Assembly (NCBI GenBank): GCA_017938155.1
Contig: JAGBCD010000038.1
Coordinates: forward strand, 61,504-125,503
From: Paludibacteraceae bacterium
GTDB lineage: Bacteria; Bacteroidota; Bacteroidia; Bacteroidales; Paludibacteraceae
Reading direction: 5' to 3'
Length of the DNA: 64,000 bases
The notes below the pieces were generated by a model. It was not told the origin of the DNA. It searched no databases and saw only the letters and a program-made list of their open reading frames with translations. Shown in pieces: positions 7,059-21,309 of this stretch. How positions within the stretch are numbered: position 1 is the first letter of the stretch; the number at the start of each line of letters is the position of its first letter. Both the position numbers and the translations under genes were made by a program.

Positions 7059-7079
7059 AAAATGCTGCTCTGCATTTTT
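7059..7079. terminator. Convergent terminator hairpin
   Basis: AAAATGC (7059-7065) pairs with GCATTTT (7072-7078) around a six-base loop, followed by T on the plus strand and preceded by A-rich sequence. It lies between the flippase stop (7042) and the comM remnant stop (7079-7081) and could serve both strands. Confidence 0.55.
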
Positions 7080-7804
7080 CACTCACCCCAACTATCCCTA
7101 TCCAAACTTCTATAGGAGATAGCCTCCATTAGGTGCGCCACTTGAATTGTCTCCATGCCATCTAAGTCCGCGATGGTTCTTGCCACTTTCAAGATACGGT
7201 CGTATGCACGAGCAGACAATCCAAATTGTGCCATGGCTTGCTCCAGCAGTTGATCACTCATCGCATCCAAAACGCAATATTTGCGAAGCATTTTAGGCGT
7301 CATTTGTGCGTTGCAATAAACGGTTGTATTGGACTCATCAGCCTTGAAACGTTCTATTTGTATCTCTCGGGCACGCACCACTCGAGCACGGATATCCTTG
7401 CTGGGTTCTCCTGGTTCCATCTTGCTTAGTTCGCTATATGGAACAGCCTGAACAGGAACGGTGATATCTATTCTGTCCAACAACGGACCTGAAATCTTAT
7501 CCTTGTAGCGATGGACTTGACTGGGGGTACACGTACAAATCGTATTCGGATCGCCATAGTGACCACATGGACATGGGTTCATAGCTGCTACCAACATAAA
7601 CGTAGCAGGGTACTCTACCGAGAAACGACTCCTGGAAACAATGATCTTGTGGTCCTCCAATGGTTGGCGCATTACCTCCAACGCACTACGCTTATACTCT
7701 GGCAATTCATCCAAGAATATAGACTTGTGCCATTCATATAATCCGCTGTGTATGAGAAGATTAAATATCAAAAAAGCCACTATTTTTGAACTAAAAAATA
7801 TCAT
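7079..7804 (-). pseudogene. comM: 3' remnant of comM (YifB/Mg-chelatase-like ATPase), N-terminal half missing
   Basis: The last 209 residues, from [22 protein letters not shown] to [12 protein letters not shown], are the C-terminal half of a ComM/YifB helicase. They keep [22 protein letters not shown] and [21 protein letters not shown]. The Lon-like N-domain and the Walker A motif are absent. The first 32 residues of the open frame ([14 protein letters not shown] and onward) do not resemble ComM. By eye the remnant is roughly 60% identical to the matching part of the intact copy at 19765-21309, so it is not a recent duplicate. Homology ends near 7718-7735. I read it as the original gene's 3' end, displaced when the island at 7.8-19.7 kb arrived. 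Confidence 0.85.
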
Positions 7805-7959: not shown

Positions 7960-8018
7960 ACAGTTAGAAAAGTCGACATACTCGTCTTTTTATTATTGCT
8001 AATTTTCAAAATCGAGCG

Positions 8019-8026
8019 CAAAGGTA
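8019..8026 (-). promoter_or_regulatory. -7 promoter element for the small ORF at the island's left edge
   Basis: TACCTTTG on the minus strand (CAAAGGTA on plus) follows directly after the U-run of the AAA gene's terminator and reads toward 7959. It matches the Bacteroidetes -7 consensus. I see no clear TTTG partner at the usual distance. Confidence 0.5.
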
Positions 8027-8032
8027 CAAAAA

Positions 8033-8077
8033 AAATCTGACATACACAAATTTATTTAGATATTGTATGCCAGATTT
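8033..8077 (-). terminator. Rho-independent terminator of the AAA ATPase gene
   Basis: Minus-strand stem: AAATCTG-GCATAC pairs with GTATG-T-CAGATTT (plus arms 8033-8045 and 8065-8077), with one internal mismatch, followed by a run of eight U residues. It lies 40 nt beyond the stop of the AAA gene. Confidence 0.8.
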
Positions 8078-8117
8078 TAATTTTTGAAACGCAAACTTGA
8101 ATTTTTATTTAGATTCA

Positions 8118-9776
8118 CTAACAGAATCCAATTCGTCGCGAATTGCTACTACTGAAGAGTTCTGTCTTGCAAGCTTCGAGTATAGAATCCATTTTCACTT
8201 TGTCATCTCCCGATAGTACCGCATTAACGATCTGTTTCCGTGCAATATTCTCAATCTGTCCTCCACTAAATGAATATTGTTTGGCAAGTTCATAAGCTTC
8301 TTTTTCAGAAATCTCCGGCAACATACTATGCCATATATGCTGACTTTCATTTGGTGTTGGCTTCGGGAACTCAATCTTATAGAGGAAGCGGCGTTCAAAT
8401 GCAGTATCCAAGTTGCCGGTGAGATTAGTAGTCGCAATCATTATACCATCCAACGTCTCCATTTCCTGTAAGATGATGTTCTGCATAGCGTTCTCCATCT
8501 TATCTACACTATCTTCTGCTCCTTCTTTGCGTTTACATAGGATAGCATCAGCCTCGTTGAATAGCAAGATCGGCGCTAGTTCTGCCTTTTTACAGCTGTT
8601 ACGGTATCTCTCAAAAATAGCTTTGGTGTTCTTCTCTGTATCTCCCACCCATTTGCTCCGTAAGTTAGGCACATCCACAATCATTATGCCTCTACCTGTC
8701 TTACGTGCCAGTTGCAGAACCGATTCTGTTTTTCCTGTTCCCGGAGCGCCGTAGAAGATACATGCAAAACCACGTCTCATCCCATGTTTCGTTAAGTTTT
8801 CTTGCACAACAGAAAAACGTTCTGATTGCAATAACGTCTCCAATTGTTCTACTTGTTTAGTAACAGACGGATTGAAGAATAACTTCTTCGGTGTGATTGA
8901 ATCTGGATTTTTGATATTTTTGTCTTCCTTTACGGCTCCACTCGTATCTATGTCTACTAAAAAACGCTCCTTGGCTGTATTGGACAGTTTCCACGCATCT
9001 ATCTCCGTTTGACCATTACTATCACTATAATCCACCAATCCCGCTTCTTGTAAAGGGTGCGTTCCGCTTTCCAATAAGCGTGCATGGGTACGCATCTGCC
9101 ACCGCTGTTCAAACACATCCTCTATATCACTTTTGATAATATGTTCATCATGGTTTTGTATATATAAGTTCGTCATTGCTGCGAATACCAACATATCCTC
9201 GAAGTCTGTAATCTTTGCCATTTCACTCGCGATAATAAGGTGTGGATTTTCATTTATCAATTGCAATAGAGCCGTTCGGAAATTTTCATACGATATTCGA
9301 TCCCGGTCTTTTTTCTCCATCAATACGCTTAAATCCCCTATCCATTGTTCAAGTGTTAGATTTTTATAATCCTTTGGCGTATATACCCTATTTTCACGAA
9401 CAGCCTCAATCGCCTCATTTGGAATAGAATAAAATACATCGCCATCTGAATCCTTAAATTGAGACACATATTGAAACTTCATTAATTCTTCAACCGCTGG
9501 CCAATACGTAAGAATCTTAATTTGATTGCAATCATAAAAATAAGCAAGATCTTTGATACGTATTCGAGAATCAGAGAGGTCATCGAAAAATGCAGAGAAG
9601 AGCATCGCAGCATCATCAGAAACATTGATTCGTCTGGCAAAAGTCTGAATATACGGCAAGGCAGCTGTGATACTTGCTTCTGATAGTTTTTTCTTTTTCA
9701 TAGCACTGATAATTCCATCTAGCAACTTCACCTGCGTGAATTTTTCTAAATCCTGGGGCATTGTTTTCGTTTTCAT
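8118..9776 (-). CDS. AAA+ ATPase of the island
   Basis: A 552-residue soluble protein. The N-terminal 300 residues are helical and unrecognised. The C-terminal AAA+ module has Walker A GAPGTGKTE (about residues 342-350), a Walker B-like ILLFNEADAIL, sensor-1-like ATTNLTGNLD and an arginine-finger segment FERRFLYKIEFP. Walker B has Asn where Asp is usual (FNEAD), while the catalytic Glu remains. I chose ATG 9776 because the longer TTG start at 9812 would lie inside the -7 promoter element. It is divergent from the WYL operon and its promoter shares that operon's box, so it probably belongs to the same system as an ATP-driven remodeller or translocator. It lacks any nuclease motif I can see. 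Confidence 0.85.
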   Translation of the reverse strand: MKTKTMPQDLEKFTQVKLLDGIISAMKKKKLSEASITAALPYIQTFARRINVSDDAAMLFSAFFDDLSDSRIRIKDLAYFYDCNQIKILTYWPAVEELMKFQYVSQFKDSDGDVFYSIPNEAIEAVRENRVYTPKDYKNLTLEQWIGDLSVLMEKKDRDRISYENFRTALLQLINENPHLIIASEMAKITDFEDMLVFAAMTNLYIQNHDEHIIKSDIEDVFEQRWQMRTHARLLESGTHPLQEAGLVDYSDSNGQTEIDAWKLSNTAKERFLVDIDTSGAVKEDKNIKNPDSITPKKLFFNPSVTKQVEQLETLLQSERFSVVQENLTKHGMRRGFACIFYGAPGTGKTESVLQLARKTGRGIMIVDVPNLRSKWVGDTEKNTKAIFERYRNSCKKAELAPILLFNEADAILCKRKEGAEDSVDKMENAMQNIILQEMETLDGIMIATTNLTGNLDTAFERRFLYKIEFPKPTPNESQHIWHSMLPEISEKEAYELAKQYSFSGGQIENIARKQIVNAVLSGDDKVKMDSILEACKTELFSSSNSRRIGFC

Positions 9777-9801
9777 AAGTCCATTTTTTTGAAATTCGCT
9801 G

Positions 9802-9832
9802 CAAAGGTACAATATACGGCTCCCACGAAACG
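9802..9832 (-). promoter_or_regulatory. Island promoter A (AAA gene) with shared GTGGGAG box
   Basis: Read on the minus strand: CGTTTCGTGGGAG (plus 9820-9832), 10 nt, TACCTTTG (plus 9802-9809), then CA. The same spacing and box occur at 9941-9971 and 16776-16806. Here the box is also half of an inverted repeat, CTCCC - 7 nt - GGGAG, which could be an operator for a dimeric regulator. Confidence 0.75.
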
Positions 9833-9899
9833 GGAGACATCATTTTTTTATTTTTTTTGTTACAATTTCCACATTTTAGAGTACATTTACCTCTAAAAA

Positions 9900-9930
9900 T
9901 TTGTTCAAGTCATTTTTTTTACTAATTTTG
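9900..9930 (+). promoter_or_regulatory. Upstream canonical promoter of the WYL operon
   Basis: TTTG (9900-9903), 19 nt, TAATTTTG (9923-9930): an ideal Bacteroidetes promoter pointing into the WYL operon. It lies just upstream of the boxed promoter at 9941-9971, so the operon appears to have two tandem promoters, one without the box. Confidence 0.65.
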
Positions 9931-9940
9931 CAAGCGTATT

Positions 9941-9971
9941 CATTTTGTGGGAGTACAAAGCCGTAATTTTG
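9941..9971 (+). promoter_or_regulatory. Island promoter B (WYL operon) with shared GTGGGAG box
   Basis: CATTTTGTGGGAG (9941-9953), 10 nt, TAATTTTG (9964-9971), then CA. It is nearly the same as the promoter at 16776-16806. The TTTG of the box is only 16 nt from the -7 element, shorter than the usual 19-21 nt, which argues that the box is a regulator site rather than an ordinary -33 element. Confidence 0.75.
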
Positions 9972-9991
9972 CAACCGAAAATTTAACACGC

Positions 9992-10906
9992 ATGAATAAA
10001 AAATCATCAACAGCTTATCTTTTTGAGTGCTATATCTGGTTGGTAAACACTATCGCACGTGGTCCTATATCTCGCGCGGATATAGATGACAAGTGGGCGC
10101 GATCTTCTGTGAATGACTACAAAAAGGATTCTATTCCGGAAAGTACGTTTCATCGTTGGCGTGAAACAGTACAGTTACTTTTCGATATTACTATTAAGTG
10201 CAATACGCATGGCGAGTATTACATTGAGGAGGCTGCGAGCTTACGCGACACAGACATGCGCACACGCATGTTAAACCTTATGTCTGTTAATAGTCTTCTT
10301 AAAGACAGCAAAGGTTTACGCGACCAGATTCTATATGAACCTGTTCCTTCCGGGGATAAATTCCTATCACCTATCATTGAAGCATTACGAGATAGATGCG
10401 CTATTATGTTGACGTATCAAAGTTTCAGCAAAACGCAACCTACTACATTTGAGGTTGAACCATATTGCCTCAAAATGTTTAAACAGCGTTGGTATATGTT
10501 GGCTTTATCTACAGGGATAGACGAAATACGTGTTTATTCTCTTGACCGTATCCATGCCATTGAGCCGACTTCGCGCAAATATAAGTTACCGAAAGGTTTT
10601 GATGCCGAACTATATTTTAGAAATACTTATGGCGTTAGCGGTATGGAGTGTGATCCGCAACTAGTAGAAATACGCATTGAGGCATATCAGGCTAATTATC
10701 TACGCACCTTACCGATTCACTCTTCGCAAGAAGAAATTGAGAAGAACGATGATTATTCTGTGTTCCGGTATAATATTGTTCCTACATTTGAGTTTATGCA
10801 AGAACTACGGAAACAAGGCTCTACTTTGGAAGTCCTCAGTCCTAAGTGGCTAAGAGACGAGTTTACTCAGGAGGCGGTTAACTTATATGGAATATATAAA
10901 GGTTAA
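9992..10906 (+). CDS. WYL-domain transcriptional regulator
   Basis: A 304-residue regulator with an N-terminal winged-helix-like part (about residues 5-90), a central WYL domain with the strand VEPYCLKMFKQRWYMLALS and EIRVYSLDRIHAIEPTSRKY, and a C-terminal WCX-like extension. WYL proteins such as BrxR and CapW control defence operons by binding operators in their promoters; this one resembles that layout. I chose ATG 9992 because the longer GTG start (9947) lies within the promoter box. It is the first gene of the island's plus-strand operon; the exonuclease gene follows after 6 nt. It is the best candidate to bind the shared TTTYGTGRGAG box. Confidence 0.9.
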   Translation: MNKKSSTAYLFECYIWLVNTIARGPISRADIDDKWARSSVNDYKKDSIPESTFHRWRETVQLLFDITIKCNTHGEYYIEEAASLRDTDMRTRMLNLMSVNSLLKDSKGLRDQILYEPVPSGDKFLSPIIEALRDRCAIMLTYQSFSKTQPTTFEVEPYCLKMFKQRWYMLALSTGIDEIRVYSLDRIHAIEPTSRKYKLPKGFDAELYFRNTYGVSGMECDPQLVEIRIEAYQANYLRTLPIHSSQEEIEKNDDYSVFRYNIVPTFEFMQELRKQGSTLEVLSPKWLRDEFTQEAVNLYGIYKG

Positions 10907-10912
10907 GTAGGA

Positions 10913-11467
10913 ATGAAAGATTTTGCAGCAATAGATTTTGAAACAGCTAATGGCCAACATTCCAGTATTTGTTCTGTGGGTCTTGTGGTCGTCCGGAATG
11001 GCGAAATAGTGGATACCTATTATTCACTTGTAAAGCCAACACCAAACTACTATGCCTGGTTCTGCCAAGAAGTGCATGGATTAGATCGTTGTGACACCGA
11101 CAAAGCTCCTGTCTTTTCAAAGGTTTGGGCTGAGATTGAGAATCTGCTTGCACGCGACTTTCAAGATCAATTCTCGGATTCAGACGAACCACTATGCGAC
11201 AAGCTATCCAACTCAGTTATTCTTGTTGCACACAATGCCCGGTTTGATCAATCGTGCTTGAATGCTGCATTTTCGACTTACGGCATCCATGATCGTTATT
11301 ACACCTTCTTGGATACGCTGGCTCAATCGCGTCGTCATTTTGGGAATGCCCTCCCGAACCACCAACTACAAACTATAGCAGCAGCTTGTGGTTATGACTT
11401 AAAGAATCACCACCATGCACTTGCTGATGCAGAGGCGTGCGCATGGATAGCAAGAGAAATATTGTAA
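10913..11467 (+). CDS. DEDDh 3'-5' exonuclease (DnaQ-like)
   Basis: A 184-residue stand-alone exonuclease domain. The four acidic metal ligands and the general-base His are visible: DFET near residue 8 (Asp, Glu), VAHNARFDQS (Asp), and HHHALADAEACA (His and Asp). The family degrades DNA or RNA from the 3' end. No polymerase or helicase is fused to it. It sits 6 nt after the WYL gene and 16 nt before the first DUF262 gene, so it is part of the operon. As a DnaQ-like proofreading subunit it would be out of place; a nuclease effector or processing role in the island is more likely. Confidence 0.9.
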   Translation: MKDFAAIDFETANGQHSSICSVGLVVVRNGEIVDTYYSLVKPTPNYYAWFCQEVHGLDRCDTDKAPVFSKVWAEIENLLARDFQDQFSDSDEPLCDKLSNSVILVAHNARFDQSCLNAAFSTYGIHDRYYTFLDTLAQSRRHFGNALPNHQLQTIAAACGYDLKNHHHALADAEACAWIAREIL

Positions 11468-11483
11468 AAGAAAAATTAGTTAT

Positions 11484-13379
11484 ATGGAAGACAATAAAAT
11501 ATACACCCTTACAGTGAGTGAAATCTCAGGTAAAAAATTCTTCATTCCTGCATATCAGAGAGGATATAGATGGACTGAGCAACAGGTTTTGGATTTGCTT
11601 AATGATGTGAATGAATTTAAAACCGGTGGTGACAATGCATGGTATTGCTTGCAGCCATTAGTTGTCCGGTTAATGAATCCTGAAGACAAAAGACTAGTAC
11701 TAGAAAATGACAAAAGTGAATGGTATGAAGTCATTGATGGACAGCAACGATTAACTACTACATTTTTGATTATACATTATTTCAATGAAATGTATAATGG
11801 AAAAAAGAAAAAGGAGCTTCCATATATAAAATATGAGACAAGAACACATAGTTATGATTATTTGAAGTCATTGGAAATAAGTGAGACAGGGGATGTCTTG
11901 TACGAAAACAAGCTACCAGATAGTATAGATTTTTATTATATGAAACTGGCTTACAAGGCTATTGATAAATGGGTAGACAGTCATCCGGATTTTGATGAAA
12001 ATGAATTCCAAACAAAATTTATAAGGAAGACAAGCTTTATATGGTATGAATCTGTTGAAGAAGATCCTATCAAAGTGTTCACGCGCTTAAACATTGGAAA
12101 AATTTCCTTAACCAATGCTGAACTTATTAAAGCATTGTTCTTGAACCGTTCAAATTTTAGATCTGAAGATGATAATCATTTGATATTACGCCAACAAGAA
12201 ATAGCAAGTGAGTGGGATGCCATAGAATATTCATTACAAAAAGATGAGTTCTGGCTTTTCCTTAATTCACCGGGTTATCATCGTCCCACAAGAATTGATT
12301 TTATTTTTGAATTAATATGCAATCAAAACAAATTGCAATTATCGTTAGAGAAACTTAAGTTGATAGGTACTGATGATTATAGAACATTCCGATATTTTTA
12401 TGAGTATTTTAAGTCTGGCGATGCCAGTATTGAAGAATGCTGGAAAGAAATAAAAAACTATTTCCAAGTCTTCAAGGAATGGTATGACGATGTAGAACTA
12501 TATCACTATGTAGGGTATTTGGTAGAATATAAATATAAAATAGCTGACATTGTAAATGCATGGGAAAAATCTGAAGATAAGTCTGCATTTATCAAAAAAC
12601 TTAAAGAAAAGATTAGAGATATTATTTTGAACAGTTATCCCAAGGGGATTCAAACGCTAAAAGACGCGATGAATTTCCAATTTAAGGAGGACGGTAGCGA
12701 TAAGGGGAGGTGCAAACCCATATTATTATTCCATAATATCCAAACAATCATTAATCAAAACAAGACGAAAGAAGATAATGAAAAATATCAAATAGGTGTA
12801 TTTTATAAGTTCCCATTCCATTTGTATAAGATTGAGAATTGGGATGTTGAACATATAAACTCTAATACGACGAATCCAGAGGAAGGAGAAGACACACAAA
12901 AAGAATGGTTGTTTAATATTTACTTAGGAGTAAATGATGAGATTCAAGCACTTATTAAAAACTATTTTGAAGAAGATGATGTTGATGTAAAAAACACATT
13001 GTTTGAACAAATACAACAAATATATCCTTCACAAGTTGAGTGGTCTGATCAGGAGAAGAATAGAATCTGGAATTATACACTTTTGGACTCGTCTACTAAT
13101 AGAAGTTATGGAAATTCAATTTTCTCAGGAAAACGACGTGTAATCATAGGAAAGGATAAGGGAAAATTAATTCCAATTCCGAAATGGTCAAAAAACAAGG
13201 CTTTTGTGCTGGATACTGAAGAAAAAGAAGCGACATCATCTTTTATTCCCCAATGTACAAAACAAGTATTTATGAAATACTATTCATCTATCTTTAGTGA
13301 TCCTAATTACTGGACTAAGGAAGACGCATTGGGGTATAAGAACGATATCTTAGGTTGTATTAAAACATTGGAGGATTAA
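11484..13379 (+). CDS. DUF262 protein with C-terminal HNH-like region (GmrSD/type IV restriction-like)
   Basis: A 631-residue protein. The N-terminal DUF262 (ParB-like NTPase) domain has IPAYQRGYRW (residues 21-30) and IDGQQRLTT (84-92), motifs that bind and hydrolyse nucleotide in GmrS. Further in, TRLNIGKISLTNAEL matches the domain's conserved FxRxNxxG-like strand. The C-terminal part carries WDVEHINSNTT (about residue 455) and NYTLLDSSTNRSYGNSIFSGKR (about 530-550), which fit the His and Asn segments of a DUF1524/HNH nuclease. Family members cleave modified phage DNA. The sequence is clearly AT-rich. The second DUF262 gene begins 2 nt after its stop, so the two products are probably made in fixed ratio. 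Confidence 0.88.
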   Translation: MEDNKIYTLTVSEISGKKFFIPAYQRGYRWTEQQVLDLLNDVNEFKTGGDNAWYCLQPLVVRLMNPEDKRLVLENDKSEWYEVIDGQQRLTTTFLIIHYFNEMYNGKKKKELPYIKYETRTHSYDYLKSLEISETGDVLYENKLPDSIDFYYMKLAYKAIDKWVDSHPDFDENEFQTKFIRKTSFIWYESVEEDPIKVFTRLNIGKISLTNAELIKALFLNRSNFRSEDDNHLILRQQEIASEWDAIEYSLQKDEFWLFLNSPGYHRPTRIDFIFELICNQNKLQLSLEKLKLIGTDDYRTFRYFYEYFKSGDASIEECWKEIKNYFQVFKEWYDDVELYHYVGYLVEYKYKIADIVNAWEKSEDKSAFIKKLKEKIRDIILNSYPKGIQTLKDAMNFQFKEDGSDKGRCKPILLFHNIQTIINQNKTKEDNEKYQIGVFYKFPFHLYKIENWDVEHINSNTTNPEEGEDTQKEWLFNIYLGVNDEIQALIKNYFEEDDVDVKNTLFEQIQQIYPSQVEWSDQEKNRIWNYTLLDSSTNRSYGNSIFSGKRRVIIGKDKGKLIPIPKWSKNKAFVLDTEEKEATSSFIPQCTKQVFMKYYSSIFSDPNYWTKEDALGYKNDILGCIKTLED

Positions 13380-13381
13380 TC

Positions 13382-15832
13382 ATGGATACCAATAACACAA
13401 CGGTTAAATCAACATTCTGGGATTTTATAAAGCAATATAAAATTGAAATTCCTATCATTCAACGCGACTACGCTCAAGGACGGCTTGGCAAGGAGAATTT
13501 GAGAAAAGGTTTTTTATCCGATTTAAAAAAAGCTCTTGACAATCCCCAAAACGAAATGAAATTGGATTTCGTTTATGGTTCAACGGATAATGATACTTTA
13601 TTTCCTTTGGATGGTCAGCAACGATTAACCACACTTTGGCTACTTCATTGGTATATTGCTTTGCGCGCCGATTGTTTGACACAAGAAAATTGTCAGATAT
13701 TCAAGAAATTTTCATATGAGACACGCATCTCTTCCCGTGAGTTCTGTCAGAATCTATGTGAATACGAATATTTTAAACAGTTTGATGGTAATGATATAGT
13801 GAGTTATATTAAACGTCAAACCTGGTTTTATTCAGTATGGAAGCAAGATCCTACAATTCAATCCATGCTTCGCATGTTAGGGGGAACGAATATACACAAT
13901 AAAAAGGGCGAAGACATTGTAGATGGTTTGGAAGAGATCTTTTCCGATACAGAAGAACGCGAATTCAAAGAGTATTGGAACATCTTAACAACTACTATTT
14001 GTCCTATTGTTTTCTATCATTTGCCTCTTGATAATTTTGGACTTTCTGATGATTTGTATATTAAGATGAATGCACGAGGAAAACAATTAACAAGTTTTGA
14101 GAATTTCAAAGCGGATTTAATTGGATACATCCGACACCAAGCCTATAATGAGAATCTATCAGAAGAGGTACACGTTAAATGGGAAAGATTGCTTGATCCT
14201 GCAATTGGTATTCCTATTAAAATGGATACTACATGGACAGATTTGTTCTGGAATAATAGATCAAAAGGCATTAAACAGGCTGATGGAAACATTATCTTAA
14301 CTGATCAAATAGATGAAATTTATTATGCATTCTTAAATCGTTTCTTCTGGAATGAACTATTTAATGCCAAGGATGCAGAAAATAAGTACATTCTCACGCT
14401 AAATGGTAGAGAAAGAGAAAATAGTTCTTACTTCTTCTTAAATGATGAAAAAAATGATAAAGGTTATGATGAAAAGATAGCTTATCAAGGCTTGGATGTA
14501 TATAAGTATTTCAACGGAGAAATTCCATTAGAATGCTTTGAGAAGTTAATGCGCATATTGGATAATTTACATAATTTCAAAGGTAACATTCCGATTTGTT
14601 CCTGGAATAATTCATTTAAGTTTGTCCCAGAATACGAAAATGTCAAGGATGAAAATGGCATAGAAAGAGAAGAGAATATTAAAATCATTAATAACTCATC
14701 GGATTCTATTCTAAAAGTCACTACATTAACCCAAATTCATAGGATTACCTTCTTCGGTTTATGTAAATATTTTAACGAAGATGCTGGAGATGAAATTTCT
14801 CTAAAACGGTGGATGAGAGTGGTATGGAATTTAATATCGGGAGAAGCATCAGATGGTCGTCCGCAAATCAGAAGTACAGATGCTATGCGGAGTGCTATTG
14901 AGATAATAGATAAATTGGATAGCCATAACGTATACGAGAGTTTGAATGAAGATAAAGCAATGATTCTCTCAAAAGGGAATAGGTTATCAGATATTGAGCA
15001 AAGATATAAAGAAGAAGTTGAAAAAGCGAAAAAGATTCTTGAAGCAAGAATAGATAATAGATCATGGGAAAATGATATCATTATTGCTGAAAATGAAGCG
15101 TTCTTTAAAGGAGCTATTCGGTTCTTGTTTACCGATGAAAATGGCACATATAACTGGAGCGATTTTGATATAAAAGCCGCAAATGCCAAGTGCTATTTTG
15201 ATAGAGATGGTGTCAGAAAGGATTATTCGCCAATACTTATGCGTAGGCTAATCTCATATTATGATGATTGGGGTATGTTTTTTAATATAACATATGATTC
15301 CACAAAAGAAACATGGCTAAAAATGTTATTAGAAGACAAGTGGAAGAAACCGATTCATAAATTACTTTTCGATAATAGTCAAAATGATTTGGTGGCCTTT
15401 CAGTCTCCTCTGGCAGACTCCCACCAGAAAAGAATCCATGAAGAAATGGTCCAATCAAACATTCTGCAATATATAGAAAAGGGATGTTTCTTGAACGATC
15501 GAACCACATATCAGATTTTATATCCTTATAACGCACATGCAGAATGGAAAAAATATATCATAGGCTCAAACAGAAATCCTATTTTGTCGTCCCTTTGTGA
15601 CAGCAAGACAATATCAACTAAACAACGATTAAATAAAACATGTAATTTCTTTTGGGGATGGGATGTCACTTTTAAATATAGCGAAAAAGATTTTATTTGG
15701 ACATGGAACAACAAGCTAGTCACTTACTTTAATGATAAAAGGATAGAACGAGAACTTAGTCAAGAAGAATCAATAGAGTCGATCCAATCAAAATTAGAAG
15801 ATATAATAAAAGAGATTGTAGCTATTGAATAA
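13382..15832 (+). CDS. Large DUF262 protein without a visible HNH motif
   Basis: An 816-residue protein. DUF262 motifs are IPIIQRDYAQGR (residues 23-34) and LDGQQRLTTLWLLHW (76-90), followed by LYIKMNARGKQLTSFENFKADL, the conserved central segment. The remaining 550 residues are AT-rich and unrecognised. I see no DUF1524-type His-Asn pair, so this may be the NTP-dependent sensor partner of the HNH-bearing protein encoded just upstream. One 60-base line, 14641-14700, has 17 G/C, well below the window's housekeeping genes, which suggests horizontal transfer. Tandem DUF262 pairs occur in defence islands, but I cannot match this pair to a named system. Confidence 0.85.
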   Translation: MDTNNTTVKSTFWDFIKQYKIEIPIIQRDYAQGRLGKENLRKGFLSDLKKALDNPQNEMKLDFVYGSTDNDTLFPLDGQQRLTTLWLLHWYIALRADCLTQENCQIFKKFSYETRISSREFCQNLCEYEYFKQFDGNDIVSYIKRQTWFYSVWKQDPTIQSMLRMLGGTNIHNKKGEDIVDGLEEIFSDTEEREFKEYWNILTTTICPIVFYHLPLDNFGLSDDLYIKMNARGKQLTSFENFKADLIGYIRHQAYNENLSEEVHVKWERLLDPAIGIPIKMDTTWTDLFWNNRSKGIKQADGNIILTDQIDEIYYAFLNRFFWNELFNAKDAENKYILTLNGRERENSSYFFLNDEKNDKGYDEKIAYQGLDVYKYFNGEIPLECFEKLMRILDNLHNFKGNIPICSWNNSFKFVPEYENVKDENGIEREENIKIINNSSDSILKVTTLTQIHRITFFGLCKYFNEDAGDEISLKRWMRVVWNLISGEASDGRPQIRSTDAMRSAIEIIDKLDSHNVYESLNEDKAMILSKGNRLSDIEQRYKEEVEKAKKILEARIDNRSWENDIIIAENEAFFKGAIRFLFTDENGTYNWSDFDIKAANAKCYFDRDGVRKDYSPILMRRLISYYDDWGMFFNITYDSTKETWLKMLLEDKWKKPIHKLLFDNSQNDLVAFQSPLADSHQKRIHEEMVQSNILQYIEKGCFLNDRTTYQILYPYNAHAEWKKYIIGSNRNPILSSLCDSKTISTKQRLNKTCNFFWGWDVTFKYSEKDFIWTWNNKLVTYFNDKRIERELSQEESIESIQSKLEDIIKEIVAIE

Positions 15833-15849
15833 AAAGCAGCTACTCTTCT

Positions 15850-16365
15850 ATGATACAATACATAGCCGACATAGACCACTATTCTCAAGTCATAGCACAG
15901 ATTCCCAAGGTTAAGCGCCTACTTTGGATTGCGACTGCGGATTTGAAGGATTTGTATATTGAAAAGAAGGACAAATCTATTGTCCCACTTCTTCAAGTTC
16001 TTAATGACTTGGTGAAAAAAGGTGTTGAGGTGCGGCTCCTTCATGCCAAAGAGCCAGGACAACCATTCAGGGAAGACTTCGACAAATATCCAGCTTTATG
16101 GGGAGGCATGGAGCGTCACCTATGTTCGCGTGTACACATGAAGCTAGTCGTAATGGATAGCGAATTGGTGTATATCGGTTCCGCAAATCTTACTGGAGCC
16201 GGCATGGGCTTGAAATCATCTGTTAATCGCAATTTTGAAGCCGGTATATTAACTGATGAACCGGGATTTATTGATTCTGCTATGAGCCACTTCGATTCGG
16301 TATGGGAAGGCACTCATTGCAAGAAGTGTGGACGCAAAGAGTTTTGTGGAGATAGAATAAAATAA
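15850..16365 (+). CDS. Phospholipase D-like protein, one HKD motif, Cys-rich tail
   Basis: A 171-residue protein with one HKD motif: HMKLVVMD (His96, Lys98, Asp103) followed by YIGSANLTGAGMG. Single-HKD proteins of this size (Nuc/BfiI type) dimerise to form a nuclease active site; others are DNA-repair or defence effectors. The C-terminus HCKKCGRKEFCGDR has three Cys (157, 160, 166) and a His that might bind zinc. No signal peptide, so it is cytoplasmic, unlike secreted Nuc. It follows the second DUF262 gene by 17 nt and precedes a small unknown gene by 17 nt, so it belongs to the operon. Confidence 0.87.
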   Translation: MIQYIADIDHYSQVIAQIPKVKRLLWIATADLKDLYIEKKDKSIVPLLQVLNDLVKKGVEVRLLHAKEPGQPFREDFDKYPALWGGMERHLCSRVHMKLVVMDSELVYIGSANLTGAGMGLKSSVNRNFEAGILTDEPGFIDSAMSHFDSVWEGTHCKKCGRKEFCGDRIK

Positions 16366-16382
16366 TCTAAAACATAATTGAT

Positions 16383-16721
16383 ATGGAAGATGCATTTGAT
16401 TACGTTGTAAACGAAGTGGCAAAAATCGCTTTGAAAAAGCTCAATATGGATGAAAACGACTCTGGTAACGTATTCCTTATGGGGCATATTCTGGTTGGGC
16501 TTTGTGGCTCAGATAGTGATGAAATCATCGCAGCAAGATCTCTTGGCTATCTTATGATGTCCGGACGTTATCTACAGGAAGAAGAAGTCAAGAAGATGGT
16601 AGCCGAAACAAAAGAGAAATGTGGTATGCAGGTATTTGGTCTTCAGATGGCATATAATATCATCGAAGAATATGGCTGCTCCGGCATTGAAGCCCTAGCA
16701 CAGATACATCAATTTTTGTAA
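16383..16721 (+). CDS. Unknown 112-aa helical protein, last gene of the WYL operon
   Basis: Not recognised. A soluble, acidic, mostly helical protein: starts MEDAFDYVVNEVAKIALKKL, has a Gly-rich centre FLMGHILVGLCGSDSDEII, and ends EALAQIHQFL. No signal peptide, membrane segment or catalytic motif. The start is preceded by a purine-poor but A-rich leader. It ends the first plus-strand unit of the island: after it comes a 125-nt gap that contains the next boxed promoter. Confidence 0.75.
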   Translation: MEDAFDYVVNEVAKIALKKLNMDENDSGNVFLMGHILVGLCGSDSDEIIAARSLGYLMMSGRYLQEEEVKKMVAETKEKCGMQVFGLQMAYNIIEEYGCSGIEALAQIHQFL

Positions 16722-16775
16722 TACGTAATACTATTGGATAAAAGTAGATAAAATTCAAAAAAAATCATCAGCCTC

Positions 16776-16806
16776 CATTTTGTGAGAGTATAAAGCATTA
16801 ATTTTG
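16776..16806 (+). promoter_or_regulatory. Island promoter C with shared GTGAGAG box
   Basis: CATTTTGTGAGAG (16776-16788), 10 nt, TAATTTTG (16799-16806), then CA. It matches the WYL operon promoter (9941-9971) at 12 of 13 box positions and all 8 positions of the -7 element. It would drive the second plus-strand unit, 16847-19718. Confidence 0.75.
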
Positions 16807-16846
16807 CAGCGTGATTCAAAAGAGTCGCGCTGTAAATTTATATGTT

Positions 16847-17158
16847 ATGGGCAAGAAAATTCGTATAAAACAAGAATACTGGAGTCATAGACATGACTTC
16901 CCGATTGAGGAAATTTGGAATACAGAAAATGTTATTGCAGCTTTTATCGCACCTCGACTAAGGGCGTTCAAGGATTTGAAAAAACATGGATATCCCTCGG
17001 AAATGAATAGTGAGCGACAATGGAATAGCGCCATCCAAAGGATGATAGATGCCTTTGAGATATTAAGTAGCCCTTATACTCCAACTGACGAAGAAGATCC
17101 TATTGTAGAGGAAGGTCTTGATCTGTTCCGCAAGCATTTCCGGAATCTTTGGGATTGA
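16847..17158 (+). CDS. Unknown 103-aa protein, first gene of the second island operon
   Basis: Not recognised. Soluble, rich in aromatic and charged residues: MGKKIRIKQEYWSHRHDFPI at the start, RQWNSAIQRMIDAFEILSSP in the middle, FRKHFRNLWD at the end. No catalytic motif seen. I chose ATG 16847 rather than the GTG at 16811, because the -7 element ends at 16806 and transcription should begin only a few bases beyond. The FtsK-like gene follows after 30 nt. Confidence 0.75.
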   Translation: MGKKIRIKQEYWSHRHDFPIEEIWNTENVIAAFIAPRLRAFKDLKKHGYPSEMNSERQWNSAIQRMIDAFEILSSPYTPTDEEDPIVEEGLDLFRKHFRNLWD

Positions 17159-17188
17159 GAAGATTAACTATATACTGTAAAAAAAATC

Positions 17189-18142
17189 ATGGAGAGCTAT
17201 CAATTACCTTCTGACTCATTATTGAAAACATACCAACCGGAGTATGTGATCCAACGATATGTCTCGATGCATTCTGTCATCATGTCAGATAGATTTCTAT
17301 ACACACAAACCATGTCTCTTCCTGTTGCAATAGGGAGAAACATCCCCAATCCGCAGGTTGTACATGTTTTCGATTTAGCCAAAATGCCACACTTGCTGAT
17401 AGCAGGAGCGTGTGGGCAAGGTAAGACAAATGCTATTAGGGCAATCATAACCTCTCTGCTATTCAGAAAACGACCTTCCGAGCTGAAGTTTCTCCTTATG
17501 GATCCTTCCGGTATTGAGTATAAAGCCATGCGCTATATTAGTCAAATGTATATTGCTACGACATCGAATAATAAAGAGCCAATTATCACCAAATATAGTC
17601 AAGTAATTGATATGCTCAACTCATTGGTGGAAGAGGTGGAAAATCGGAAAAAAATAATATCAGAAGCTAAGTGTGCGAACATTGACGAATATAATAAGCA
17701 AGTCCAAGACATATCAAAAATGTTACCTTACATCGTTGTCGTGATGGATGAATATAGTGATTTCGCGTTACAAGGAGGAAATGAGATAGAACACCTTATT
17801 ATTTACCTCACCGGTGTTGCACATGAGGTCGGCATCCATTTCGTTCTTACAACAAAGCGTCCATCAGCTAAAGTTATAACGAATGAGATTAAGGGATGCT
17901 TTCGCGCAAAAATCGCTTTCCGAGCAGAGAATTCTTCAGACTCTTCAAGTATAATTGATCTTGATGCAGCCACAAATCTTTCAAGGGGAGAAATGCTTAT
18001 GGTTGGAAAAGGACTAGGTTGTATCGCCCAAGCCCAATGTGCTCTCATTGAGAGACAGGAATTTGAGGACTTTATTAAGTCTATCGCTAATCAACCTTAT
18101 ACAAAGCCTCAGTATATATTGCCTTGTATTGAAACAAACTAA
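17189..18142 (+). CDS. Soluble FtsK/SpoIIIE-like motor ATPase
   Basis: A 317-residue protein that is almost only the FtsK motor domain. Landmarks: HLLIAGACGQGKTNAIRAII (Walker A, residues 73-80), LLMDPSGIEYKAM, YIVVVMDEYSDF (Walker B, about 187), and GIHFVLTTKRPSAKVITNEI followed by CFRAKIAFRAENSSDSSSII and GEMLMVGKG. These align with chromosome-pumping FtsK, but the N-terminal membrane part and the C-terminal gamma domain that reads KOPS are missing. So it should be a cytoplasmic DNA translocase guided by other partners. FtsK/HerA-type motors recur in defence and conjugative systems; no conjugation genes are present here, which favours defence. Three small genes follow closely. Confidence 0.87.
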   Translation: MESYQLPSDSLLKTYQPEYVIQRYVSMHSVIMSDRFLYTQTMSLPVAIGRNIPNPQVVHVFDLAKMPHLLIAGACGQGKTNAIRAIITSLLFRKRPSELKFLLMDPSGIEYKAMRYISQMYIATTSNNKEPIITKYSQVIDMLNSLVEEVENRKKIISEAKCANIDEYNKQVQDISKMLPYIVVVMDEYSDFALQGGNEIEHLIIYLTGVAHEVGIHFVLTTKRPSAKVITNEIKGCFRAKIAFRAENSSDSSSIIDLDAATNLSRGEMLMVGKGLGCIAQAQCALIERQEFEDFIKSIANQPYTKPQYILPCIETN

Positions 18143-18155
18143 AGACAATTACTAT

Positions 18156-18413
18156 ATGGATTTACAATCAGTCAATGACCAGTTAGAATTACTGCGTCTC
18201 AAAGAATTATTCATGTCTAGTATTGACATTCGTAGCAAAATGGCCACTTTAATTTGTAGAGAAAGTCCATTCCGGGATTTCTGTAAACTAACTCATTGCG
18301 AGCCACGCCACGCAGAGATGTTCTCTCGGACGTTATTATTCGACATTATTCTCACTCCTGAAGAAATTTCCGCAGAACGTGAAAGATTAGAAAGAATCAA
18401 GAAAAGTTTGTAA
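18156..18413 (+). CDS. Unknown 85-aa helical protein
   Basis: Not recognised. MDLQSVNDQLELLRLKELFM at the start, a Cys-containing centre LICRESPFRDFCKLTHCEP, and a charged helical tail ending ERLERIKKSL. The longer frame from 18039 overlaps the FtsK-like gene and is not credible, so I use ATG 18156, 13 nt after the FtsK stop. The next gene begins 3 nt after its stop. Confidence 0.7.
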   Translation: MDLQSVNDQLELLRLKELFMSSIDIRSKMATLICRESPFRDFCKLTHCEPRHAEMFSRTLLFDIILTPEEISAERERLERIKKSL

Positions 18414-18416
18414 ACG

Positions 18417-18683
18417 ATGGAAAACATTAAAGATCGAGCTGAAGGATTACAGAACAAAGTAAAACTTTGGCAAACTGTAGAACCAAACGAAAAGGAGTTG
18501 AGAGAGTTTAGCCGTGACTATCTGACATTACGAAGAGATATTCGTAAACTTTCTTCAGATCTAGATAAAATGTATTATTCCTACCAACAAATGTATGCAC
18601 GGTGGAATAATAAACAAGATAGTGAACAGCAGTCCTCTTCCTTGGAATGGTTGAAGCAGCATCAATTAGAAATCAACTTTTAA
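18417..18683 (+). CDS. Unknown 88-aa coiled-coil-like protein
   Basis: Not recognised. Strongly charged and helical: MENIKDRAEGLQNKVKLWQT, then REFSRDYLTLRRDIRKLSSD and a Gln-rich end. It probably forms a short coiled coil and may be a structural subunit. Placed 3 nt after the previous gene and 6 nt before the next, so translation of the four last genes is likely coupled. Confidence 0.7.
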   Translation: MENIKDRAEGLQNKVKLWQTVEPNEKELREFSRDYLTLRRDIRKLSSDLDKMYYSYQQMYARWNNKQDSEQQSSSLEWLKQHQLEINF

Positions 18684-18689
18684 ACATAT

Positions 18690-19718
18690 ATGGAAAACAG
18701 TCATACTACAGATGATGAGGTATTGAACCTATCATGGAAAGAGCAAGTATTGTATCTTGCTAAAAAAGGTGCAGAAGAACGCATGGTTAGAGCACTAATT
18801 CGCACTATGCCGGAATCAGAATGGCAGCAATTAGAAAAAGAAGGAACGCCAAGCGTAGTCCGTATCGCATTAAATACTCTTTATTGGGAAAAGAGTAATG
18901 TGAGCTATGAGTATGAAGTTCAAGAACAGCCCAAGTACAGACCAGTATCCGAGGTTCTTGAAGAGTTCTTAGGAACCGGCAAACGGCAAGTAGCTCGAAA
19001 GGAACTGCAAATTCGGTTGCCCTATGTAACCGCCTTGGAGCAAAAACAAATAATATATGCGTTCTTGGATTCTGATGCAAAGTTAGACAGAGAATATGCC
19101 TGTAAATATCTCGATTCTCACTATGAACCAATGTATGAAAAGGCTATCGAGACTATATGGGGATTACACCATGATGCTGAAACCGCAAAAGTGCTTATTC
19201 ATTATGCTACAGATGAGTTCGTTTCTCAGAACTTTGACCAATTAGCAGCAGACTACCGTTATTTGCCGGTTCGGTTAAGAATGCCTAACGACTATCCGGT
19301 GGATCGTTCACAATTGGAACAACATGAGTTCCTTCATCTTTGTTCACGGCAACAGTTACCCATTACAGAACACGAAGCATTTGCAGTATTGTCCAACACC
19401 TTACTGCTACAGCTAATCCGACACCCACATTTTTCTTCATCGGAGTCGCTTTATAAACTACCATACATAAGTACGATTATAAACGATATTGGTCGTCTCG
19501 GATTCCGTAATATCATAGTGCATTTCTTTCTTGAAAACGAACGAACCAAGCCTTTGTTTACCGATGGCGATCCGTATCAGGTAAGTACGACTATTAGAGA
19601 TCAAATCTATCACGATGGTTTTTACTACTATCGCGACGTGCTGAATACAAAAGAAGATATCTCCAGAAGAAAATTAGCGAAACGATATAAGGAACATCCG
19701 GAAGAGTTTGAAGAATAG
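18690..19718 (+). CDS. Unknown 342-aa protein, last gene of the island
   Basis: Not recognised. The N-terminal 200 residues are helical with repeating patterns (MVRALIRTMPESEWQQLEKE, QIRLPYVTALEQKQIIYAFL, YEKAIETIWGLHHDAETAKV) that would suit a HEAT- or TPR-like scaffold. The C-terminal part (about residues 210-342) looks globular, with FRNIIVHFFLENERTKPLF and DGFYYYRDVLNTKEDISRRK. No nuclease or ATPase motif visible. A perfect 10-bp terminator stem follows, shared with the convergent comM. Confidence 0.72.
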   Translation: MENSHTTDDEVLNLSWKEQVLYLAKKGAEERMVRALIRTMPESEWQQLEKEGTPSVVRIALNTLYWEKSNVSYEYEVQEQPKYRPVSEVLEEFLGTGKRQVARKELQIRLPYVTALEQKQIIYAFLDSDAKLDREYACKYLDSHYEPMYEKAIETIWGLHHDAETAKVLIHYATDEFVSQNFDQLAADYRYLPVRLRMPNDYPVDRSQLEQHEFLHLCSRQQLPITEHEAFAVLSNTLLLQLIRHPHFSSSESLYKLPYISTIINDIGRLGFRNIIVHFFLENERTKPLFTDGDPYQVSTTIRDQIYHDGFYYYRDVLNTKEDISRRKLAKRYKEHPEEFEE

Positions 19719-19722
19719 AAAG

Positions 19723-19757
19723 AAGAAACGCGCACTCAGTACGCGTTTCTTTCATTT
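19723..19757. terminator. Bidirectional terminator at the island's right side
   Basis: AAGAAACGCG (19723-19732) pairs perfectly with CGCGTTTCTT (19742-19751), with T-rich sequence after it on the plus strand and A-rich sequence before it. It separates the convergent island operon and comM. Confidence 0.8.
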
Positions 19758-19764
19758 TAAACTC

Positions 19765-21309
19765 TTATCCTGCCCAGTTGCTTCTATCAAGGGAGCGGTA
19801 AGATATGGCTTCCAGTAAATGTTTCTTTTGTATGTCTTGTGAACCGTCCAAGTCTGCTATTGTACGGGCAACTTTCAGGATTCTATCATAAGCACGAGCA
19901 CTTAATCCTAATTTAGTCATTGTGAACTCCAGTAACTTGTCGCATTCTGCATCTAAAGCACAATATTGTCGTACCATTTTAGTAGACATCATCGCATTAG
20001 AGTGAATGAGCGCATTGTTAGCAAACCGTTGCTTCTGGACTTCACGAGCCTTAGTTACTCTTTCGCGCATCGCAGCAGAAGATTCACCCGGTGCTGTTTC
20101 GCGTAATTGCTCATAGGGTACAGCTTCGATTTCGCATTGGAGGTCAATTCGATCGAGCAAAGGCCCACTTATGCGGCTTAGATATCTATGAATTTGTGCC
20201 GGAGTGCAGGTGCATGGATGGGCTGGATTATTAGCTCCATAATAACCGCATGGGCATGGATTCATAGCGGCGACTAACATAAATGACGCAGGGAAATCAA
20301 CTGAAGATTTTGTCCGCACAACGGTAATATGGCGGTCTTCGAGCGGTTGGCGCAATACTTCTAGAGTAGCGGCACGGTATTCACTCAGCTCGTCTAGAAA
20401 CAACACACCATTATTAGCAAGGCTTATCTCACCTGGGCGTGGATTGGTTCCTCCACCCACCAATGCCACATCCGTTATTGTATGATGAGGTGCTCTGAAA
20501 GGACGTTGCGTCAATATAGAGTGATTCTTAGGCAGCAATCCTGCCACTGAATGAATCTTGGTGGTCTCTAATGCCTCTTTCAAACTCAAAGGAGGAAGAA
20601 TAGAGGGCAAACGCTTTGCTAACATCGATTTACCTGTACCTGGAGGACCTATCATAAGGATATTATGTCCACCAGCCGCAGCAATCTCCATGGCCCTACG
20701 AACGTTTTCTTGTCCTCTCACATCAGAAAAGTCTGCATCACAAACAGCTTGTCCTTTTTCAAACTCCTGCTGAATATCCACAGTTGTCTTCTCTATGGTT
20801 TGAATACCATTCAAGAAATGTACTACATCCATCAGATTTTCTGCACCATAGACATCCAATCCTTCTACCACAGCAGCCTCCAAAGCATTATCTTTAGGAA
20901 CGATTATTTCTTTCAACCCTTGCTCCTTTGCACACAACGCAATCGGTAGCATTCCATGGATAGGTTGCAACGTGCCATCCAACGACAACTCACCTACAAA
21001 CATGCGCCCTTCCAACGCGTTCGTTGGGATATGCTCACAAATAGCCAACATCCCTATTGCCAACGGTAGATCGTATCCAGCTCCTTCCTTTTTCAAGTCG
21101 GCAGGAGCCATATTGATGGTCAATTGTTTATGCGGTATATCATATCCATTTACTTGTAATGCCGCACGTATTCGGTCACGACTCTCACGCACCGCATTAT
21201 CAGGAAGACCTACCAACGTAAAATCTACACCTGCTACTGCATGAAGCTCAATAGTGATTAATAGCGCATGAATGCCTTCTACTGCTGCGGAATATGTCTT
21301 GATTAACAT
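19765..21309 (-). CDS. comM: Intact ComM/YifB magnesium-chelatase-like AAA+ helicase
   Basis: A 514-residue protein, full length for the family. The N-terminal Lon-protease-like domain (residues 1-170) includes VDFTLVGLPDNAVRESRDRI and LTINMAPADLKKEGAGYDLP. The AAA+ module has Walker A IGPPGTGKSML (about 215-225), RPFRAPHHTITDVALVGGG, Walker B NNGVLFLDELSEY and [12 protein letters not shown], and it ends SYRSLDRSNWAG. In naturally transformable bacteria ComM drives branch migration during DNA uptake. It starts 10 nt after the tamB stop, so it is co-transcribed with tamB. Its C-terminal half has a diverged duplicate at 7079-7804. In Acinetobacter comM is a known island insertion site; the same may hold here. 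Confidence 0.93.
   Translation of the reverse strand: MLIKTYSAAVEGIHALLITIELHAVAGVDFTLVGLPDNAVRESRDRIRAALQVNGYDIPHKQLTINMAPADLKKEGAGYDLPLAIGMLAICEHIPTNALEGRMFVGELSLDGTLQPIHGMLPIALCAKEQGLKEIIVPKDNALEAAVVEGLDVYGAENLMDVVHFLNGIQTIEKTTVDIQQEFEKGQAVCDADFSDVRGQENVRRAMEIAAAGGHNILMIGPPGTGKSMLAKRLPSILPPLSLKEALETTKIHSVAGLLPKNHSILTQRPFRAPHHTITDVALVGGGTNPRPGEISLANNGVLFLDELSEYRAATLEVLRQPLEDRHITVVRTKSSVDFPASFMLVAAMNPCPCGYYGANNPAHPCTCTPAQIHRYLSRISGPLLDRIDLQCEIEAVPYEQLRETAPGESSAAMRERVTKAREVQKQRFANNALIHSNAMMSTKMVRQYCALDAECDKLLEFTMTKLGLSARAYDRILKVARTIADLDGSQDIQKKHLLEAISYRSLDRSNWAG

Follow-up and report, generated by a model that had tools for sequence, protein, structure and literature searches.

The window analysed here is a stretch of 64,000 nucleotides, and the island at 8118–19718 within it was confirmed, its genes, strands and coordinates being as earlier listed (table 1). 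The AAA, WYL, DEDDh, PLD and FtsK-like parts and the DUF262 pair named in the earlier note were all recovered by Pfam; u112, u115, u94, u88 and u342 gave no Pfam family above cut-off. The likely start codons are ATG at 9776 for AAA, 9992 for WYL, 16847 for u115 and 18156 for u94. In the AAA protein some 300 N-terminal residues without assigned family precede an IetA/CDC48-like AAA domain. Its Walker A motif (GxPGTGKT) and unusual Walker B motif (NEAD) are unchanged across 17 aligned sequences. The stand-alone FtsK motor domain is 44% identical to the full-length FtsK of the same genome.

Is the island AT-rich relative to its neighbours, and does it lie between two pieces of comM, as had been claimed? 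The first description holds for the DUF262 pair, at 32.9% GC, but not for the rest of the island, at 38.9–41.5% against 40.2% for the window. As for the second, there is a comM fragment on the left, but the right-hand comM is intact at 514 aa. Since the left fragment is just 62% identical to the full gene (residues 303–513), it does not represent a fresh split.

Table 1. Features of the island and its flanks, in window positions, with the evidence for each.
Feature	Position	Strand	Evidence
comM C-terminal fragment, left flank	7079..7804	-	Pfam Mg_chelatase, Mg_chelatase_C
AAA+ ATPase, about 550 aa, own transcription unit	8118..9776	-	Pfam AAA 5.9e-22
putative promoter/operator motif before AAA gene	9801..9830	-	pattern match
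putative promoter/operator motif before WYL operon	9943..9972	+	pattern match; 33-bp repeat
WYL/WCX transcriptional regulator	9992..10906	+	Pfam WYL 4.1e-16, WCX 1.9e-9
DEDDh 3'-5' exonuclease	10913..11467	+	Pfam Rv2179c-like, RNase_T; catalytic motifs seen by eye
24-bp end of DEDDh gene, left slot edge	11444..11467	+	DNA-level conservation unusually high
GrwA-like DUF262 protein, weak DUF1524 (HNH) region	11484..13379	+	GmrSD_N 2.7e-29
GrwB-like DUF262 protein, 816 aa, long C-terminal part without assigned family	13382..15832	+	GmrSD_N 4.4e-19
short single-HKD phospholipase-D-like nuclease (PLD)	15850..16365	+	Pfam PLDc_2 2.1e-14; alignment
u112, protein without family	16383..16721	+	homologues at 34-41% in four further loci of the genus
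putative promoter/operator motif before u115-FtsK operon	16778..16807	+	pattern match
u115, protein without family, shorter start chosen	16847..17158	+	homologues 79-88% in three loci
stand-alone FtsK/HerA-type motor domain	17189..18142	+	Pfam FtsK_SpoIIIE 4.2e-33
u94, small protein without family	18156..18413	+	homologues at 58-71% in 13 further loci of the genus
u88, small protein without family	18417..18683	+	
u342, protein without family	18690..19718	+	homologues: G260 93%, G173 57%
intact comM, right flank	19765..21309	-	Pfam ChlI, Mg_chelatase, Mg_chelatase_C

The promoter motif and the WYL regulator

The same putative promoter/operator motif opens each of the three transcription units that the earlier note had drawn, which supports that division at the level of sequence. 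In the 1.96 Mb genome the motif occurs exactly three times, all at the starts of these units. Across 178 genomes of the same genus there were 41 matches, in 26 genomes, the strict motif being missing from the other 152; neither the reversed motif nor a motif with scrambled core and retained promoter parts gave a single match in the same 178 genomes. The outer parts of the motif we take to be ordinary Bacteroidales promoter elements.

How closely is the motif tied to the WYL gene? For 38 of the 41 matches one of the related WYL genes listed is no more than 10 kb away and, conversely, the strict motif occurs within 2 kb of 25 of the 51 WYL genes of at least 56% identity. Among 30 WYL upstream regions that were read, 11 held the strict motif, 12 a variant recognized by eye and seven neither. 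The motif is thus conserved in sequence and is a candidate operator of the WYL protein, whose relatives in the PDB are PafBC (2.9e-9) and, weakly, CapW (0.005). With the WYL gene adjoining defence-type genes and one motif common to the three promoters, the claim of a WYL-regulated, defence-type locus is supported.

The DUF262 pair and its slot

The two adjoining genes at 11484–15832 each encode an N-terminal DUF262 domain, one of the traits of the GrwAB type. The first protein carries QR, DGQQR (ending at R89) and FxxxN, with EH at 456–457, N530 and N539; its match to GmrSD_C (E 0.0019, 18.6 bits) lies below the Pfam cut-off of 23. The second has QR and DGQQR (ending at R81) and, by eye, YxxxN; no FxxxN was found in it, and Pfam detected GmrSD_N alone, with no HNH family.

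In the parts of the published account considered here, GrwAB is an experimentally tested two-gene GmrSD system of modification-dependent restriction, which requires both its genes and acts on phages whose DNA is modified. The window pair resembles it, in architecture and motifs as described rather than by sequence-to-sequence comparison, in its order (DUF262 with DUF1524, then DUF262 with a C-terminus without assigned family), in the QR and DGQQR motifs of both proteins, and in a long catalytic H-to-N stretch (73, against 90 in GrwA) with nine between the two N; the H-to-N spacing ranges from 48 to 98 among relatives. It differs from GrwAB, as there described, in its weak HNH score, in YxxxN rather than FxxxN in the second protein, and in being embedded in a WYL–DEDDh–PLD frame.

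What occupies this position in related genomes? In the nearest relative found, G260, DNA identity to the window is 96% over 7689–11469, 93.5% over 15859–16734 and 84% over 16735–20694; the DNA directly flanking the pair is thus 93–96% identical, and no DNA identity was found across the pair itself. There a pair with TgvAB architecture takes its place, the boundaries of the swap being no more than 10 bp from the DEDDh stop codon and from the PLD start, which forms the right edge of the slot. Otherwise G260 keeps the gene order of the whole set, with one small gene added. In the excerpted account of TgvAB (PMC11411939) that system sits in a type I RM operon; the G260 pair shares with it DUF262 in the first protein, DUF262 with DUF1524 in the second, and an H-to-N spacing of 30 against 31. 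Unlike the GrwAB-like pair, the TgvAB counterpart fills the slot of G260 and not that of the present genome. In a third genome, G316, the slot holds a PD-(D/E)XK_4 gene and a gene without assigned family. Cassettes have 33–36% GC (four loci) and frame parts 38.7–41.5% (two loci measured).

The comparison shows that what lies between DEDDh and PLD, the putative effector slot, is exchangeable. One slot in two related species holds pairs with the architectures of two tested modification-dependent restriction systems, and the swap is therefore directly testable. The earlier note could match the parts as a whole to no named system; by architecture the pair matches the two-gene GmrSD systems GrwAB and TgvAB. 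The proposal that it may sense and cut is plausible. That other DNA-attacking enzymes fill the slot in relatives suggests a plug-in design of bacterial immunity.

Recurrence and effector classes across the genus

Co-location was above expectation in the 178 genomes: DEDDh lies within 10 kb of WYL in 27 of 75 cases (0.6 expected), PLD with DEDDh in 12 of 24 (0.1 expected) and PLD with WYL in 10 of 24 (0.2 expected). On the recurrence check set out in the earlier note, the genes recur together in variable neighbourhoods, but WYL, DEDDh, PLD and AAA also occur with other effectors or apart. At 35 of 80 PLD loci, some with short flanks, the search found none of the four others (WYL, DEDDh, AAA, DUF262). 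Among the loci examined, G000 and G260 alone have both AAA and the FtsK operon of the window complete; most other genus islands that were read are without AAA, PLD or FtsK, and in other genera the gene order is mixed.

Thirty related WYL genes were considered, three of them cut by a contig end. By recount, 25 of the other 27 are each followed by one, and just one, effector class out of three: a GmrSD pair, a PD-(D/E)XK_4 protein (matching the PADLOC candidate set PDC-S26) or a glycosylase-like family, the last a weak assignment. The two families concerned, k2 and k56, are homologous to each other. Matches were weak: a sequence search gave PDB 4zbx at E 0.018, Pfam UDG was matched by three of 15 members (best E 0.057), and single-protein searches bearing on uracil-glycosylase identity gave E 0.084 and 0.12, the latter for k28. 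Neither k28 nor one relative of k2 drew a useful match from the PDB. The comparison of the k2 profile with 28 UNG-type proteins failed (P 0.33); the unrelated k18 came out best of 13 families against that profile (P 0.005), a sign of how noisy the comparison is. When a single family-4 protein served as the target, P was 3.7e-4 for k2 and 8.6e-4 for k56, set beside at least 0.078 for eight unrelated families, 0.0044 for the UNG profile, 0.035 for k20 and 0.24 for k28. With weak searches and a failed UNG profile comparison, uracil-glycosylase identity was not upheld; we keep 'glycosylase-like' as a weak label for k2 and k56 only, and k20 and k28 receive none.

Interpretation and known systems

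We read the host as a Paludibacteraceae-like gut Bacteroidales and favour, with a probability of about 0.66, a WYL-gated, modular anti-phage island with a type IV-like effector. The WYL protein would bind a dyad-like site that overlaps the −33 element at the three promoters and so gate three operons: WYL–DEDDh–(effector slot)–PLD–u112, u115–FtsK–u94–u88–u342, and AAA. By analogy with published work on GrwAB and TgvAB, both DUF262 proteins would act jointly, nucleotide hydrolysis serving the sensing of modified phage DNA, which the HNH region of the first protein would cut. Much less certain are the roles of the accessory proteins. The DEDDh exonuclease and PLD nuclease may process the cut DNA, or may clear a nucleic-acid signal sensed by WYL; the AAA and FtsK motors may remodel complexes or DNA. 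This offers a concrete hypothesis for the on/off switching of WYL-gated defences, and the putative operator plus WYL is a DNA signature that picks out a family of such islands, regulated and of defence type, in uncultured gut Bacteroidales; many of these islands hold genes without a family.

Might the dozen proteins instead form a single pathway, the DUF262 pair sensing and cutting, the motors moving DNA, the exonuclease and PLD finishing? The common motif and the retention of nearly the whole set in G260 speak for it, but the same genome replaces the pair while keeping its neighbours, AAA, PLD or FtsK is missing from most other islands, and GrwAB and TgvAB (PMC11411939), in the portions of the accounts considered, function as two-gene systems expressed without island-type partners. 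Because the pair is replaceable, and because each of WYL, DEDDh, PLD and AAA is also seen beside other effectors or apart from the rest, the parts probably do not make up one indivisible system, and we consider the single pathway rather improbable. At the other extreme, independent defence genes may simply have gathered side by side, linked by position alone. The separate occurrence of WYL, DEDDh, PLD and AAA and the mixed order in other genera would fit; the sharing of one motif by the three units, the tie of that motif to WYL throughout the genus, the single effector class found with almost every uncut WYL gene and the clean slot edges make such a gathering unlikely. A DNA-damage regulon, in which a PafBC-like WYL protein responds to damage by switching on the exonuclease, motor and nuclease genes and defence comes second, gains from PafBC being the closest solved structure and from how well the exonuclease, the FtsK motor and what may be a glycosylase family fit repair. 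Sporadic presence and exchanged effectors tell against it, and GmrSD pairs and PDDEXK_4 proteins suit defence better; we regard it as very improbable.

The favoured WYL-gated island may have a further reach. Ring nucleases terminate type III CRISPR signalling, and in parallel DEDDh could be an off-switch that removes a nucleic-acid ligand of WYL. The whole would then be a plug-in platform, a constant shell of WYL operator and regulator around an effector socket, with cassettes that target foreign DNA (PD-(D/E)XK_4, the glycosylase-like family and GmrSD pairs of two kinds) swapped at the 24-bp DEDDh end and the PLD start, perhaps by specific recombination. This extension is possible but doubtful.

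Several known systems share single parts with the island. IetAS consists of an AAA ATPase and a protease partner, IetS; the island AAA domain resembles IetA (PADLOC 6.2e-31) but its N-terminal part is unlike, and with 96 bits where the cut-off is 510, and no protease family among the island proteins, IetAS was rejected. DISARM comprises DrmC with DrmA and DrmB, and the phosphorothioate systems Dnd/Ssp comprise the modification genes SspBCD or DndBCDE. In a scan of 10 island proteins the PLD scored 46.9 bits against the DrmC cut-off of 133, with no DrmA or DrmB match, and merely partial SspE-like and SspH-like matches appeared; neither assignment was kept. Regulation offers further parallels. 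On pEFER, in the part of the account considered (PMC9122601), BrxR regulates an island of BREX and BrxU through two operator sites. In common with it, as judged from the WYL gene, defence-type neighbours and an operator-like motif rather than from comparison with the BrxR sequence, are a WYL regulator, several operator-like sites, a 5-bp spacer separating repeats and an island including a GmrSD-family enzyme; the differences are that no BREX genes were found here, that there are three sites rather than two, and that the present island belongs to a genus-wide set with exchanged effectors. The RptR type I RM island (PMC12255303) likewise has a small repressor and site that travel with a defence island holding embedded genes but, by its description in part, it is non-WYL, has other effectors and lies in Gammaproteobacteria.

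As to origin, a phage source was rejected, the search giving a single 40-bp match to one unannotated phage record; when plasmids were searched for the second DUF262 protein, 17 records gave relatives, all of them partial. A comM match was present in 59 of 81 genus genomes searched. Since none of 20 comM neighbourhoods from those 59, some of them short, held island genes, comM was dropped as a general insertion hotspot. In two loci chosen because they contain the gene in question, AAA lies two genes from an intact comM (L073, G297) and a DUF262 pair lies near one (L017, G084). A comM fragment adjoins AAA in G000, G260 and G316.

Layout of the island and its flanks

Does the island stand apart from its surroundings? 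The earlier note placed it between two pieces of comM and called it AT-rich. The left flank is indeed a fragment, but the right comM is intact; and low GC is a property of the DUF262 pair (32.9%), the only clearly AT-rich part, whereas the remaining parts have 38.9–41.5%. By eye, DEDDh, PLD and FtsK have their catalytic motifs. The Walker motifs of the AAA protein are invariant across 17 aligned sequences, with Walker B reading NEAD. The nearest named relatives of the PLD gene come from Paludibacteraceae and Bacteroidales MAGs, several of them ruminant-derived. Elsewhere this genome carries a further PLD gene of that family (77% identity), at G000:C18:146304–146816, on a contig without a listed WYL or DEDDh match.

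Features in the window (bases 61504–125503 of contig 34; genome size 1.96 Mb); u-numbers are island proteins without an assigned family
Feature	Window position	Strand	Remark
comM fragment	7079–7804		left island flank
AAA gene	between comM fragment and intact comM	minus	
WYL, DEDDh, two DUF262, PLD, u112, then u115, FtsK, u94, u88, u342		plus	
start of DEDDh gene	10911–10950		40 bp at 95% to unannotated faecal phage record MT837679.1
u94	18156–18413	plus	
comM, intact	19765–21309		right island flank
five tRNA genes (Trp, Thr, Gly, Tyr, Thr)	52316–54172	minus	
GC-rich stretch, ~3 kb	59001–62000		GC 45–49.5%; 1-kb bins peak at 60001–62000; no Rfam match found

Exchange at the effector slot

What becomes of the island in a related genome? 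G260, of the same genus, carries the same island, enclosed there too by comM and a fragment of comM. At the protein level, identities to the window are high (AAA 99%, WYL 98%, DEDDh 96%, PLD 96%, u112 94%, u115 86%, u94 95%, u88 95%, u342 93%), with FtsK, at 79%, the least conserved apart from the DUF262 pair, and one additional small gene, c23, ahead of u115. Only the DUF262 pair departs from this. That of G260 differs (581 and 611 aa; GC also low, 34.5%), and only 97 and 78 of its residues align to the window's first DUF262 protein, at ~34%. DNA identity stops 2 bases past the DEDDh stop and restarts 9 bases inside the PLD gene. In another genome (G316, locus L090) this slot holds a PDDEXK_4 gene and a gene of no assigned family, and AAA and a comM fragment lie close by; at L089 it is filled by a GmrSD protein together with a small protein and one that weakly resembles EVE; at L086 PLD directly follows DEDDh. 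Comparison across related genomes shows exchange of the putative effector.

Which effectors follow related WYL genes? We surveyed up to 7.5 kb (some stretches are shorter) downstream of 30 such genes of at least 55% identity, a set that omits L048, L086, L083 and L224, and kept the supported families: k2 and k56 (glycosylase-like, a weak assignment), k12 and k40 (PDDEXK_4), and GmrSD pairs. Fifteen genes are followed by a glycosylase-like protein, seven by PDDEXK_4, three by GmrSD and five by none. Three of these five are truncated by a contig end; the others are L221, with a 327-aa gene of no assigned family, and L223, whose first WYL gene precedes k14, u342 and k20. Exactly one class is present in 25 of the 27 cases not cut by a contig end. 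Profile comparisons give no support to k20 and k28 as glycosylases; automatic labels that count them as such read 16 glycosylase, 6 PDDEXK_4, 2 GmrSD, 2 mixed and 4 none. Both PDDEXK_4 proteins scanned matched the PADLOC candidate set PDC-S26.

GrwAB (PMC12137116) and TgvAB (PMC11411939) are two-gene GmrSD-like systems that, in published experiments, require both genes and restrict phages with modified DNA. GrwA combines DUF262 and DUF1524 (H431, N521, N530), and GrwB DUF262 and unknown domains (PMC12137116). The window pair has a like gene order, its first protein carrying H457, N530 and N539 and a DUF1524 score under the Pfam cut-off; the G260 pair is ordered like TgvAB, its H-to-N spacing being 30 where TgvAB has 31. 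The likeness is one of described architecture and, in sequence, of the DUF262 domain. Among solved relatives, SspE gives E 0.013 with the first protein and 2e-6 with a profile of the second; another, a DUF262 protein, gives 3.4e-8.

The final DEDDh codons, adjoining the slot, are conserved at the DNA level. Among 10 same-genus DEDDh genes (two near-identical pairs omitted; pairs not independent), identical amino acids share a codon in 81% of cases over the last seven columns; elsewhere the figure is 47%. A 24-base pattern from this end has 16 matches in 15 of 178 genomes, and its reversed control none. The conserved end may be a recombination edge, or may merely reflect recent exchange.

A putative operator and its proposed regulator

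The WYL and u115 promoters are linked by a 33-bp repeat, and the AAA promoter has this pattern too, in register: TTTYGTGRGAG, 10 bases, TANNTTTGC. It matches exactly three times in the whole genome, always within the island, and not at all in 40 other genomes searched alongside. Since the motif was derived from these three sites, the independent test is other genomes. A slightly loosened form matches 41 times, in 26 of the 178 genomes of the genus (ours included), and never there when reversed or when the core is scrambled with the promoter parts retained. At 38 of the 41 sites (not L199, L218 or the second site of L223) the next downstream-frame start codon lies 2–79 bases away; a listed WYL gene lies within 2 kb of 32 and within 10 kb of 38. 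Setting aside our own genome and G260 leaves 35 sites: 21 stand directly before a WYL gene (57–71% identity) and 11 before some other gene of this kind of island, with 3 unassigned. Independence is incomplete for four of these (G173 twice, G191 contig 26, G329), their loci being known before the pattern was loosened; 18 of the other 31 directly precede WYL. The motif is not a universal rule, since among 30 WYL upstream regions 11 have it strictly, 12 have a variant by eye and 7 have none, and 152 of the 178 genomes lack the strict form. A 77-aa family, k3 (L207:6640–6870 and relatives), occurs in 12 motif-bearing loci; the member scanned is DUF6140.

The motif site overlaps the −33 element of the Bacteroidales-type promoter consensus. 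Several variants are, by eye, clear dyads with a 5-bp spacer, e.g. CTTTCA-TTTTG-TGAAAG. The same spacer is found in the inverted repeats bound by the WYL repressor BrxR at two promoters of its own island (PMC9122601). The closest solved structure to our WYL is PafBC, CapW and others being more distant; published studies deal with ssDNA binding by PafBC and with a WYL regulator for CBASS.

How might the parts work together? The analysis itself shows a common motif, the swapped pair and co-location of the parts. Beyond that we infer that WYL would sense a nucleic-acid product of infection, releasing the three promoters. The DUF262 pair would attack modified DNA, DEDDh and PLD would process the products or clear the signal, and AAA and FtsK would act as motors. 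WYL-regulated islands carrying type IV enzymes are already known, as with BrxR. Searches of the open PMC literature, at the level of titles and abstract openings, yielded no description of the WYL–DEDDh–PLD frame or its operator. What is new is an exchangeable effector slot under a genus-wide putative operator.

Recurrence of the parts

Does the island recur as a unit, a check that the earlier note suggested? Of the 178 genus genomes, 22 carry PLD and 57 carry DEDDh. DEDDh has WYL within 10 kb at 27 of 75 places, against 0.6 expected; for PLD the figures are 12 of 24 with DEDDh (0.1 expected) and 10 of 24 with WYL (0.2), the expectations assuming 2 Mb per genome, ignoring contig ends and taking WYL as the 150 rows listed. 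Among 80 named PLD loci, the best 80 of at least 571 relatives, WYL accompanies 33, DEDDh 27, AAA 19 and DUF262 16; none of the four was found in 35. The second DUF262 protein is present in 41 of 300 genomes of the family. Of the 38 stretches around it, from 36 of those 41, all but L019 and L053, in which the contig stops near the match, contain both DUF262 proteins; WYL, DEDDh, PLD or AAA, singly or together, are present in 25 of the 38. The parts co-locate above expectation, as a recurring kit and not a fixed operon.

u94 also occurs in 13 genus loci (L082, L198, L202, L207–L212, L215, L216, L219, L221). In 12 of them it is followed by k1 (~212 aa, no assigned family), which, unlike u94, is absent from the window. 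The region ahead of u94 looks variable across these 13 loci, holding FtsK-like motors, k23 (metallopeptidase-like), u115, or, by eye, a secreted-looking k6 (203 aa) or a leucine-rich-looking k18.
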